Virus record (IMG/VR): IMGVR_UViG_3300030098_005723
Span: 1 to 36,805 of that record
Source: a virus
Direction: 5' to 3' (one strand)
DNA length: 36,805 nucleotides
The notes under the pieces are model-generated. The model had not been told where the DNA came from and ran no database searches. It was given only the letters and a program-made list of their open reading frames with translations. Shown one piece after another: positions 4,034 through 7,339 of this stretch (the first letter of the stretch is position 1; every line of letters starts with the position of its first letter). Position numbers and translations under genes: made by a program.

Positions 4034-4222
4034 TTATTCCTCTTCTTTGGGAGGCGTCTCTTCTGGAGTCGGCTCCTCTGGAGCTACCTCCTCGGCTGGA
4101 GACTCACTCTCTTCTCCTCCCATAAAATGACAAGTTCCTAGAGTCGTTGAAATAACAACAACGCCCCCTACAAGAGCAACTCGTGGGTTTAGCTTTTTCC
4201 ACAGTTCTTTCAGTTTTTCCAT
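4034..4222 (-). CDS. Small membrane-anchored protein with acidic tail (62 aa)
   Basis: Start ATG 4222 is chosen for the GGAG 9 bases upstream; the in-frame GTG at 4231 has no better site. It has a basic N-terminus (KLKELWKKLNPR), one hydrophobic segment (VALVGGVVVISTTLG, about residues 16-30) and then a Glu/Pro-rich tail. A Cys after the hydrophobic stretch (LGTC) loosely resembles a lipobox but has Thr at -1. It is the last gene of the late operon, directly after the lysin; a spanin- or holin-like lysis role is plausible from size, topology and place, but not shown. Confidence 0.6.
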   Translation of the reverse strand: MEKLKELWKKLNPRVALVGGVVVISTTLGTCHFMGGEESESPAEEVAPEEPTPEETPPKEEE

Positions 4223-4224
4223 TT

Positions 4225-4818
4225 TTACCACTCCGTGATGAGGGTGTATGTGAAAGTCTTTGCCCAGTTGGGGTGATGTTCGATTTGCTTATGACACAAT
4301 GCGATTAGCTCATCGAAATCTTTACTCCGGGCAAAAACCTGGCACCCTGCGGACCACTTATCTACTCTGGTGGAGTGTGTGCCAGCTTTATGGATGTTGC
4401 AGCCGAAATAGCCTTCTTGAATCGTGTCCGGGTCCATATCCACGATGTCGTCCCTATTACCGTCTCGGTAGACTTTAATTTTTCCGTTCCGTTGGCAGAG
4501 CGCTTCGTACTTACCGCGATGGAGATCGAGCTTGTACACTCCTCGGTACTGGCCCGGGACGATGATTGCCGTTCCTGCCGATGTTCCGTAAACTTCAGGG
4601 TTTTCAAGGCAAAACCTCCCGGGGTCAGTCGTTGCTTCCCAGTATTTCACAATCCAGGGGCCGTTTTCTTCTTCTCGATAGACGCAACAAAGAAAATCGT
4701 TGAAAGAGTTTCCCTGTTCCTTGTTTCGGATGCCAATGATATTCAGATTGTAGGCATGGCCACCATCGAAAACCTTGTGGCCCAGGGATTGGACGTGTTG
4801 GAGTAGTGCAGGAATCAT
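4225..4818 (-). CDS. Putative lysin with L,D-transpeptidase (YkuD)-like catalytic signature
   Basis: 197 residues from ATG 4818, which overlaps the previous stop as ATGA and has AGGAG upstream. The C-terminal part contains GCNIHKAGTHST...WSAGCQVF: His143, Ser156, Gly158 and Cys159 fit the H-(x)n-S-x-G-C pattern of YkuD-type cysteine peptidases/transpeptidases. No signal peptide is visible. Neighbouring small membrane proteins could give it access to the wall, so an endolysin cleaving peptide crosslinks is the likeliest role. Several other Cys residues (44, 45, 70, 108, 140) are unusual for a cytoplasmic phage enzyme. It could instead be a virion-associated wall enzyme. Confidence 0.55.
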   Translation of the reverse strand: MIPALLQHVQSLGHKVFDGGHAYNLNIIGIRNKEQGNSFNDFLCCVYREEENGPWIVKYWEATTDPGRFCLENPEVYGTSAGTAIIVPGQYRGVYKLDLHRGKYEALCQRNGKIKVYRDGNRDDIVDMDPDTIQEGYFGCNIHKAGTHSTRVDKWSAGCQVFARSKDFDELIALCHKQIEHHPNWAKTFTYTLITEW

Positions 4819-5042
4819 TGTTGTTTGATCTCCTGGACTTTTTGGAACATGAGGTCGCATAAAACATCAACAGCGAATCCAATGATCTTTGCCTCTTGCC
4901 TCTCATTGAGGATTGGGAAATTGACGTGTTCGTTGATGAACTTGATAACCCAGGCTCGCTTCTCTTTCCCCTTCTTTGGTCCGGGGAAGAGGTCTTCTGC
5001 CATGATGATTGCTTGCTGTAGGATTTTTCCTCTATTCTTCAT
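4815..5042 (-). CDS. Small helical protein, similar to C-terminal part of LLH-type holins
   Basis: 75 residues with no transmembrane segment. The pattern KGKEKRAWVIKFIN...ERQEAKIIGFAVDVLCDLM recalls the conserved soluble region of LLH (superfamily 6) holins (K-x2-A-W-V...ieaaV), but the usual N-terminal membrane helix is absent. The gene sits just upstream of the lysin and overlaps it by 4 bases, consistent with a lysis accessory. Function unproven. Confidence 0.55.
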   Translation of the reverse strand: MKNRGKILQQAIIMAEDLFPGPKKGKEKRAWVIKFINEHVNFPILNERQEAKIIGFAVDVLCDLMFQKVQEIKQQ

Positions 5043-5045
5043 GAT

Positions 5046-5420
5046 CTATCCTATTAAAATTCGGTAGGAAACGGTGGAAGCGGGAGAAACATTCCCCACT
5101 GTCCCAGGAGTGGTCAAGCACGCCACTTTAAGCCCAGTACCGAAAGCACTACCGCTCGGACACGAGTATGCCCGAGTAGAAGAAGCAGGACACATCAAAA
5201 CCCAATCGGGCTCATTGGCAGCGCCACCTCCGCCCGGGGTGACGGCACCTGTCGTATCCCAGAATTTCAAATACACAGCATAGGCATTCTCGTTCACGAT
5301 CTCGACTTTGAAGATATTGCCCGCCGATCCTTTGAGGACATCGGGAGTATTACTGGCGGCGGTCTGAACACAGTGTAGACTTCCCGCGTCAGCAACAACG
5401 CTTGAAATAGAAAGAGCCAT
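5046..5420 (-). CDS. Small beta-rich virion protein (124 aa), similar to its upstream neighbour
   Basis: Predicted beta-sandwich-like sequence with AYAVYLKFWDTTGAVTPG, then EPDWVL, a Ser/Gly-rich strand and GLKVACLTTPGT. The same order (LRIFDT...GTTEP...dG.PF...ACV) occurs in the next upstream protein, so the two look like diverged tandem copies. The layout matches small structural proteins common in environmental phages, in which a LKLYD-type strand precedes a VGT.tP loop. Probably a tail or capsid accessory. Confidence 0.65.
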   Translation of the reverse strand: MALSISSVVADAGSLHCVQTAASNTPDVLKGSAGNIFKVEIVNENAYAVYLKFWDTTGAVTPGGGGAANEPDWVLMCPASSTRAYSCPSGSAFGTGLKVACLTTPGTVGNVSPASTVSYRILIG

Positions 5421-5422
5421 CG

Positions 5423-5773
5423 TTACCTCACGACTGCATGCAGTTTAATGGTGACAGCAGGGTTGGTACTTCCGGCTGTTCCGTTTTCTTGGACACAAGC
5501 ATAGCTGAAGTTCGTGAATGGGAGACCATCTACGATGGTCCACATCACATCTTCAGTCACTTTAATGATGATGTTTGGCTCGGTGGTGCCTACAGTGACG
5601 ATTGCAGTGTCGAAGATTCGTAGAAAGGAAGTGCCGGAGGGCGCTTCAATAAACAAACTATAGACTGTAGACGATCCCCCGAAAATATCCACAACAGCAG
5701 TGCCATTCACATTGCTGTCGGTGAGGACATAATCGAGGTTGGTTATTGCATTTTTACCGGTAAAAGTCGCCAT
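5423..5773 (-). CDS. Small beta-rich virion protein (116 aa)
   Basis: 116 residues, Thr/Val/Ile-rich with few charges. The core VYSLFIEAPSGTSFLRIFDT...VGTTEPNIIIKV followed by SYACVQENGTAG aligns by eye with the 124-aa downstream protein. It starts directly after the stop of the preceding gene (TAGATG). Probably a virion surface or tail component (inference from fold type and operon). Confidence 0.65.
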   Translation of the reverse strand: MATFTGKNAITNLDYVLTDSNVNGTAVVDIFGGSSTVYSLFIEAPSGTSFLRIFDTAIVTVGTTEPNIIIKVTEDVMWTIVDGLPFTNFSYACVQENGTAGSTNPAVTIKLHAVVR

Positions 5774-6412
5774 CTATCCTCCTCGGCCAGCAGGGGCGGG
5801 CGGATTCGTGGGTTGATTTACAGGAGGAGCGGATTGTGGCTTCTCTGCAATGGCTTGTTGGACAATGTCCAAACAACGCTTCAACCCCTCGGGCATTCCG
5901 TCATCGCGGGCAATGACCTTTACGTTGTACTTAGCTGAGTTGTCAGAAGAGCGGGCGTTCTCGCTTTTAGCGGAAACCGATCCGTGAATCTTCACATCCA
6001 CACTAACTGGGCCCCAGCCTGCTTTGATTTCCGTGTCAAGCGTAGCCTCGTAGTCACGGCTCGATTTAGACGACGTGCTCGATTTCACTTCCATTGTGAA
6101 GTCGACTTCGACTTCTTTCACTTGGAGAGAAGGAGTGTTCAGGATCGCGAGGATCGGAACATCGAGTTGGTTCGTAACTTCGGTATACCCACCATTGCCG
6201 TCATTTACGGGCTTGGAGTAGGTGAAGTCTACCGTCCGGGCTTTCATCACTCCGTTCGCATCAGTCTCAAGGCCGACGTTCTGGATGAAGTCAGCCGTTG
6301 CTTTCGCAAGCTGGACTTGGGAATTACAGGCAGCCGCCAACGGGCCCCCGATAAGTTGATCCATTGGCAGTCCGCCAAATTGATCTGACATTTTTACGAG
6401 GCCGTCAGGCAT
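5774..6412 (-). CDS. DUF2589-family protein (212 aa)
   Basis: Matches the layout I recall for DUF2589: LPMDQLIGGPLAAACNSQVQLA and a helix ending in DFIQNVG (residues 15-47), a VDFTYSKP strand, the conserved core LDVPILAILNTPSLQVKEVE with VDFTMEV (83-109), and PEGLKRCLDIVQQAI near 174-188, followed by a Pro/Gln-rich tail. The family is known from bacterial genomes and has no established biochemical function. ATG 6412 is supported by AGGAG. It lies next to a second protein with the same core, between the membrane-protein cassette and small beta proteins, which suggests a virion- or envelope-related role (inference). Confidence 0.72.
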   Translation of the reverse strand: MPDGLVKMSDQFGGLPMDQLIGGPLAAACNSQVQLAKATADFIQNVGLETDANGVMKARTVDFTYSKPVNDGNGGYTEVTNQLDVPILAILNTPSLQVKEVEVDFTMEVKSSTSSKSSRDYEATLDTEIKAGWGPVSVDVKIHGSVSAKSENARSSDNSAKYNVKVIARDDGMPEGLKRCLDIVQQAIAEKPQSAPPVNQPTNPPAPAGRGG

Positions 6413-6420
6413 ATTCTCTC

Positions 6421-6909
6421 CTATGGAAGTAGTTTGATGAGTTGATTGTCAATTCGAGCATAACCTTCAGGAGGCTCTTGCCCTTTAAAAGTTATGGAAA
6501 TCTTAGCAGTATTTCGCTTTCTGGCGAACCATCCTTTTCCACCAATCGAAGGATTTATTCGTAGCTTGCGGTGAGTGCATCCGATATCTGCGCCATCCTC
6601 CATTCCCTGAAGCTCAACATCCATTTCCACAGTAAGCGCTTCGATTGCTAAAGATTGCCCAGTGACGAGAGTCTGCATGGGAACTTGGATGTCTCGCTCA
6701 GTTTGTTTTCCTTCATCCCAAATGGGCAAGCGGACTGTTACCATTCGAGGGCGGTAGATAGGCTGGCCTTCGTGGTCCTTTTCTCCAGTATTAATCCAGT
6801 ATTCTTCTTGTCGGATGTGGTTTAGTTCATGCTGTTCCGCGATATCCGTAGATTTAACTACTGCTTCTTGGATCGCTCCTACAAATTCATCGAGGGAAAA
6901 CTGTGCCAT
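6421..6909 (-). CDS. Diverged DUF2589-like partner protein (162 aa)
   Basis: The core IQVPMQTLVTGQSLAIEALT with VEMDVEL (residues 74-100) aligns with residues 83-109 of the adjacent DUF2589 protein, and PEGYARIDNQLIKLL (147-161) matches its PEGLKRCLDIVQQAI. The two therefore appear to share a domain plan. The N-terminal 60 residues (LDEFVGAIQEAVVKS...YRPRMVTVRLPIW) differ from the partner. Nine bases separate the two genes, suggesting co-production and possibly a complex. Confidence 0.62.
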   Translation of the reverse strand: MAQFSLDEFVGAIQEAVVKSTDIAEQHELNHIRQEEYWINTGEKDHEGQPIYRPRMVTVRLPIWDEGKQTERDIQVPMQTLVTGQSLAIEALTVEMDVELQGMEDGADIGCTHRKLRINPSIGGKGWFARKRNTAKISITFKGQEPPEGYARIDNQLIKLLP

Positions 6910-6921
6910 TCTGTCTGTCCT

Positions 6922-7191
6922 CTACTCGGAATTACACCCCGAGAGTAGGCCCGTGATCATGTTGAGGCTGACAACCATCGATTCATGGGCCTTCTTTAAG
7001 TCTTCTATTTCTTGTTGGGCTTGAAATAGTTGGAACCCCGGATCGGGGCATTCCTCCACAACGTCTTGCGAAGGTTGGCCCTGGGTTAGTCCAAAGCCTC
7101 CTACTCCTATAGCACTTCCTCCCGCTAAATACACGAGGACCCATCCCCAAGGGGGCATATTTGAGAGGGGAGTTGAGGGGGGGTCAGTCAC
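6922..7191 (-). CDS. Small membrane protein with coiled-coil tail (89 aa)
   Basis: Starts at GTG 7191, inside the end of the preceding 51-aa gene. A Pro-rich N-terminus is followed by one hydrophobic segment (WVLVYLAGGSAIGVGGFG, about 17-34), a Cys-containing stretch and a helical, charged region (FQAQQEIEDLKKAHESM). This topology resembles an inner-membrane spanin-like or accessory lysis protein, but the family is not recognised. Confidence 0.6.
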   Translation of the reverse strand: MTDPPSTPLSNMPPWGWVLVYLAGGSAIGVGGFGLTQGQPSQDVVEECPDPGFQLFQAQQEIEDLKKAHESMVVSLNMITGLLSGCNSE

Positions 7192-7339
7192 GAGTCAGAA
7201 CTCTTTCGAAGAGTTCCTCATACTTTCGGGTCATCTTTGTGAGTTGGCGTCCCATTCGTCTGTTTTGGTTGATGAGATAGCCGATAAAAACGGCAGTCAT
7301 GCCCAGGTCAAGGTACTGCGCTAATACCTCGCCTTCCAT
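7184..7339 (-). CDS. Tiny membrane protein (51 aa)
   Basis: ATG 7339 directly follows the stop of the 63-aa gene, and its own TGA overlaps the next GTG (8-base overlap). It has one predicted hydrophobic helix (LGMTAVFIGYLI, about 12-23) followed by a basic, then amphipathic tail (RRMGRQLTKMTRKYEELFERVL). The tight overlaps on both sides and the matching topology make a real gene likely. Candidate holin or antiholin-type lysis protein. Confidence 0.55.
   Translation of the reverse strand: MEGEVLAQYLDLGMTAVFIGYLINQNRRMGRQLTKMTRKYEELFERVLTRD

Follow-up and report, generated by a model that had tools for sequence, protein, structure and literature searches.

What do two neighbouring proteins of the family DUF2589, whose Pfam entry (PF11655) states just "unknown function," do for a phage that encodes them close to its lysin? 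The question is raised by the window, as we call the whole stretch of DNA analysed here, an IMG/VR contig of 36,805 bases with matches to terminase, portal, and head proteins. The record is probably a partial genome, as close relatives lie on contigs of up to 73 kb. An earlier note on this DNA had read the two proteins as a tandem DUF2589-type pair in a late operon, between a cassette of membrane proteins and the lysin, and had suggested a virion- or envelope-related module. The genes concerned are listed in Table 1; we call the better-conserved protein A and its diverged partner B.

In an HMM search against Pfam, the family assignment stands for both proteins. A matches positions 1-153 of the 154-position DUF2589 profile (1.3e-42) and B positions 2-153 (3.7e-17), both full-length matches with bit scores (Table 1) far over the curated cut-off of 23 bits; PHROGs holds no family for either. 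The two share a PEG-x2-R motif, present as PEGLKR and PEGYAR. The motifs of A are GLP..LI..P, RSxDNSAKYNVxV, and PEG, and in alignments of 13, 25, and 41 sequences its GLP, LI, PEG-region, and SAKY columns are invariant; P77, E148, and R152 of B are invariant or nearly so among its relatives. Pairwise BLASTP gives no link between A and B (E 0.29), whereas HMM-HMM comparison of the A and B groups recovers the common core that the note had described, with 99.86% probability (E 4.6e-31). Because profiles match where BLASTP is silent, A and B are, judged by sequence, old and highly diverged paralogs.

Against close relatives, dN ranges over 0.02-0.14 in A and 0.06-0.11 in B, with synonymous sites near saturation (for A versus its counterpart in L003, dN 0.024 and dS 1.57; for B versus that in L009, dN 0.07 and dS 1.19); the B protein of L028, a more distant relative, has a dN of 0.46. 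Since dN is low while synonymous sites are nearly saturated, both proteins are under strong purifying selection. Together with the Pfam scores and the conserved adjacency described below, this excludes chance as the source of either ORF, and both are real. The genes are 8 bp apart in the window, and each is preceded by a purine-rich sequence of the ribosome-binding type. AlphaFold models of A and B are weak (pLDDT 52 and 67; pTM 0.36 and 0.42, respectively) and were left out of functional inference. Both models have the same order of elements, namely an N-terminal helix, beta strands, a variable stretch, a strand, and a C-terminal helix; with them Foldseek gave no match at E<=0.001, and no solved relative was found by sequence profile. 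Neither protein in the window has a transmembrane segment (maximum 19-residue hydropathy 0.86 for A and 0.98 for B), and for this reason we rejected a holin identity.

The pair sits in a minus-strand run whose intergenic gaps are short or absent. In order of transcription, the upstream part consists of a 95-aa protein, an XhlA-like protein, two small possible-membrane proteins, and B, and the downstream part of A, two paralogs of each other, a 75-aa protein, the lysin, and a small hydrophobic protein; the claim that small membrane-type proteins and a lysin flank the pair is thus borne out. The XhlA-like protein matches PHROG 1193 "hemolysin" (3.4e-4) and, under the cut-off, Pfam XhlA (0.004). 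The protein directly upstream of B belongs to cluster c18, found in 6 representative phages. The lysin matches PHROG 3000 (7.6e-35) and, more weakly, PHROG 33083 "endolysin" (1.9e-11). The consensus of its cluster, c1, holds a conserved H-x2-G...S-A-G-C motif that resembles those of YkuD-type cysteine enzymes, and its homologs often carry an N-terminal PG_binding_1 domain (seen by Pfam in L212). The small protein after the lysin (cluster c14), which has no Pfam match, trails the lysin in 7 representative phages and could be a spanin-like part. Pairs of the c2 paralogs that occupy 5046-5773, between A and the lysin, recur elsewhere in relatives. A promoter scan gave no more sites than shuffles did.

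Table 1. The DUF2589 pair and its neighbors in the window
Feature	Positions	Strand	Remarks
XhlA-like protein, 63 aa	7340..7531	-	coiled coil and C-terminal hydrophobic segment; hydropathy 2.18
51-aa protein	7184..7339	-	one possible membrane segment; hydropathy 1.57; cluster c7, 10 representative phages
Small protein directly upstream of B	6922..7191	-	one possible membrane segment; hydropathy 1.56
DUF2589 protein B	6421..6909	-	162 aa; diverged paralog; PF11655 63.5 bits
DUF2589 protein A	5774..6412	-	212 aa; better-conserved partner; PF11655 146.1 bits
116-aa protein directly after A	5423..5773	-	cluster c2, 13 representative phages
124-aa protein	5046..5420	-	second adjacent c2 paralog
75-aa protein	4815..5042	-	overlaps first lysin codons; PHROG matches weak
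Lysin	4225..4860	-	211 aa; cluster c1; 913 bp downstream of A
Small protein after the lysin	4034..4222	-	one hydrophobic segment; Pro/Glu-rich tail; hydropathy 1.73

The tandem layout is no peculiarity of this phage; it proved to be the usual one for this branch of DUF2589 in phages and bacteria alike. A and B occur together in every viral locus of our first survey and in 164 of the 166 related viral loci of a wider one; in the two exceptions, A lies where the contig ends. The 20 bacterial and viral records examined at the outset each have two or more adjacent DUF2589 domains. Gene order varies, from B-A near the window to A-B in distant freshwater phages, and two close relatives of the window (L178 and L194) have several small, very basic ORFs between B and A. 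Bacterial DUF2589 is sporadic (9/399, 2/189, 10/345, and 28/396 genomes in four phyla, or about 1 to 7%), and Bacteroidota and some others also have single copies, triplets, and other layouts. Constant pairing therefore holds for the branch to which the window belongs, not for the whole family. In a tree of A proteins, which has several long branches and is unsure in its details, the phages form two clades with bacterial sequences between them; well-supported branches force 2 changes, and one change is found in 0% of bootstrap trees.

The late-operon location, by contrast with the pairing, does not hold throughout the neighborhoods surveyed. The pair lies on the strand opposite to the lysin in six relatives (L176, L214, L219, L224, L234, and L250), and several opposite-strand phages have clusters c3, c4, and c5, recombination-like by eye, adjoining it. 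In L169, whose A is 57% identical, the neighbors look like DNA-repair nucleases or other DNA-metabolism genes and no lysin is near; in several phages the pair stands at an operon boundary.

What recurs in these neighborhoods is a peptidoglycan hydrolase. A c1 lysin is present in 92 of the 166 viral loci, never more than 1,866 bp from A (median 868 bp), and its strand relation to the pair flips among lineages. Part of this linkage in related phages is shared ancestry. Other phages have other enzymes: in L052 the start of a GH19 lysin overlaps the stop of B, in L062 a GH19 enzyme lies beside the pair, and in L060 both a GH24 enzyme and c1 do. Bacterial pairs have Pfam-confirmed neighbors of the GH108, GH19, Amidase_3, N-acetylmuramidase, Rv2525c-like, pesticin-type lysozyme, and GH25 kinds, as well as PG_binding_1 proteins with either a C70 peptidase domain or a domain lacking assignment, and at two plasmid loci a gene annotated "peptidoglycan-binding protein" lies about 2 kb away. 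Within a limit given variously as 1.2 and 2.5 kb, 14 of the 23 bacterial loci with a pair have a hydrolase homolog, versus 0 of 217 farther genes (Fisher p 1e-6), a test biased by the choice of the hydrolase queries from near genes, nine of the matches being the queries themselves. A fairer count without self-matches leaves five class I loci (L155, L159, L255, L257, and L268), against the same 0/217. Among 45 distant control genes no peptidoglycan hydrolase was seen, as judged by eye, and in the remaining 23 loci, mostly with single-copy DUF2589, a hydrolase is near in 3. Thus, linkage of the pair to hydrolases of unrelated families recurs in phages and bacteria, and it is not one inherited accident, because the phage copies fall in two separate clades.

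Some members of the family carry further domains. In three large freshwater phages (L037, L046, and L057), a PG_binding_1 domain is inserted in the variable loop of B, and Big_1 Ig-like domains follow a bacterial A-type protein; as far as domain assignments can tell, these additions suggest that the proteins touch the wall or the cell surface. Some A proteins have a segment of G-x-G-Y-T repeats, with no Pfam match, inserted between the first strands (L107, 7992-8882; L163, 9536-10417; L279, 9653-10516).

The bacterial and single-copy loci also have recurrent partner proteins of their own. Bacterial A/B pairs (L152-L168) are accompanied by a very conserved protein of about 85 aa, which we call C (e.g. 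L162, 8981-9238; L154, 8949-9209), with the pattern ...FVKRIVVGS...NRCL...GEHxVVLQW..YHxGF.R.P.WL and no match in Pfam or NCBIfam. C was absent from the phage loci first compared; the IMG/VR record L254 has one, but this contig looks partly bacterial and may be the edge of a bacterial chromosome; close to its B, A, and C genes is an ORF resembling, by eye, the Zot-type ATPases of filamentous phages. Bacterial protein D is probably a third, degenerate B-type paralog, to go by a profile comparison (87.9%); the same kind of comparison led us to reject the class II neighbor E as B-like. E (about 225 aa) and F (about 190 aa) are partners of single-copy DUF2589 in L158, L161, L163, L265, L266, L271, L274, L276, L279, and L281-L283, and near single-copy loci there are also patatin, M15 peptidase, subtilase, or eCIS_core proteins and, in L282, a protein that by eye is Tc-toxin-like. 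A small zinc-ribbon protein stands beside the pair in Bacteroidota (L267, L273, and L278) and in freshwater phages (for example L051, 7197-7400; L060, 5739-5942), with profile E values of about 1e-6 to 1e-8. Several class I operons encode small, secreted-looking proteins with conserved cysteines (L255, 10659-11123; L256, 8739-9182; L258, 11538-12083; L268, 2952-3494); those tested have no Pfam match, and we guess that they may be lysin immunity or inhibitor proteins.

How might the pair act? We favor, tentatively and stopping short of calling it probable, a soluble heteromer of A and B, working in trans on the hydrolase encoded alongside. A would associate with B; the variable loop of B, or of A in some relatives, would form an outward, wall-facing site that sometimes takes binding-domain insertions; and the complex would bind the lysin (in the window, presumably the c1 enzyme) or position it on the wall. 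Because the bacterial pair is found with many different wall-cutting enzymes, it could there serve as an interchangeable accessory module. We infer the interaction between A and B, their contact with lysin or wall, and an effect that helps rather than restrains the enzyme. With more reserve still, we entertain as a possibility a wider claim, that DUF2589 A/B is a general, portable two-subunit accessory complex for unrelated hydrolases, exchanged between phages and hosts, and a previously undescribed partner of lysins. Several observations count against a role as helper of lysins. No recognizable hydrolase lies near the pair in 9 of the 23 paired bacterial loci or in phages L169, L173, L179, and L110; some phage pairs sit beside recombination or DNA-metabolism genes; and single-copy DUF2589 is found beside other genes, including those for patatin and subtilase. 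A further point against this role is that Archaeoglobus, in which DUF2589-related genes have been reported, has no peptidoglycan.

We weighed four other explanations. The diversity of effector-like neighbors, with wall hydrolases, patatin, M15 peptidase, subtilase, and eCIS_core protein all represented, is what a bacteriolytic weapon of bacteria would show: its effector would be the hydrolase, with DUF2589 proteins to carry it, export it, or direct it at competitors, and phages would have adopted the carrier for their own lysin. At one locus, a Vibrio plasmid (L287, NZ_OY808999.1), genes for HlyD and a peptidase-domain ABC exporter lie just upstream of the pair, and the secreted-looking class I proteins could, by eye, be immunity proteins. 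But the exporter is seen at that locus only, signal peptides or a secretion system are not common to all loci, and the immunity role is conjecture for proteins that Pfam does not match; we consider the weapon unlikely. Solubility, co-encoding with the lysin, and the overlap of lysin start and B stop in L052 would suit an antagonist or chaperone that restrains the lysin until lysis and so shields the producing cell. PG_binding_1 inside B and Big_1 after an A suggest the wall rather than the cytoplasm, however, and restraint of this kind seems improbable to us.

The same appended wall-binding and Ig-like domains, with the place of the pair among late-strand genes in the window, might instead indicate virion or surface components, such as displayed proteins that aid wall penetration. 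Against this stand the opposite strand of the lysis genes in the six relatives named above, the lack of a PHROG family, and the bacterial loci inspected, where phage structural neighbors of the DUF2589 genes were not recognized, so that we give a virion function little chance. The earlier proposal of a virion- or envelope-related module therefore survives in part: an envelope-related role fits, but the virion role has found no direct support. Also improbable, and lowest in our estimation, is that the accessory pair just occupies a hot spot by the lysis genes and has a function unrelated to them, such as superinfection exclusion or host takeover. The sporadic distribution and the location at operon boundaries in several phages would be natural for such a pair, but linkage recurs on bacterial chromosomes, and there with unrelated hydrolase families.

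A conserved pair that is found in two phage clades and linked to unrelated hydrolases offers a concrete, testable hypothesis for DUF2589, a family whose function is not known so far. If lysins are governed by the pair, phage lysis would gain a soluble regulator or targeting unit, with a bearing on lysins as antibacterials.

With respect to known systems, A and B are members of an established family, and it is the paired, lysin-linked module that appears to be undescribed. Four Archaeoglobus genes have been mentioned as DUF2589-related (PMC3949148); neither the A/B pairing nor the hydrolase linkage was found in that paper, the only one to name DUF2589 in the literature searched, which lacks most subscription papers. 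There is also a likeness to extracellular contractile injection systems (eCIS; PMC8213781), in that an eCIS_core (DUF4157) protein lies beside single-copy DUF2589 in L163 and, by eye, a similar-looking one near the pair in L153, but the window, with its genes for terminase, portal, and head proteins, is a phage. The closest parallel in how the pair may work, with no kinship claimed, is with the multimeric endolysin PlyC (PMC10604209) and with LysIME-EF1, a two-component endolysin made from a single gene (PMC7098653), where separate polypeptides bind the wall and carry out catalysis. As in multi-subunit endolysins, a separate non-catalytic gene is found near the catalytic one, at 913 bp in the window and adjacent in many relatives. 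The DUF2589 module differs from both in consisting of two paralogs, in accompanying many unrelated hydrolases, and in occurring on bacterial chromosomes as well as in phages.
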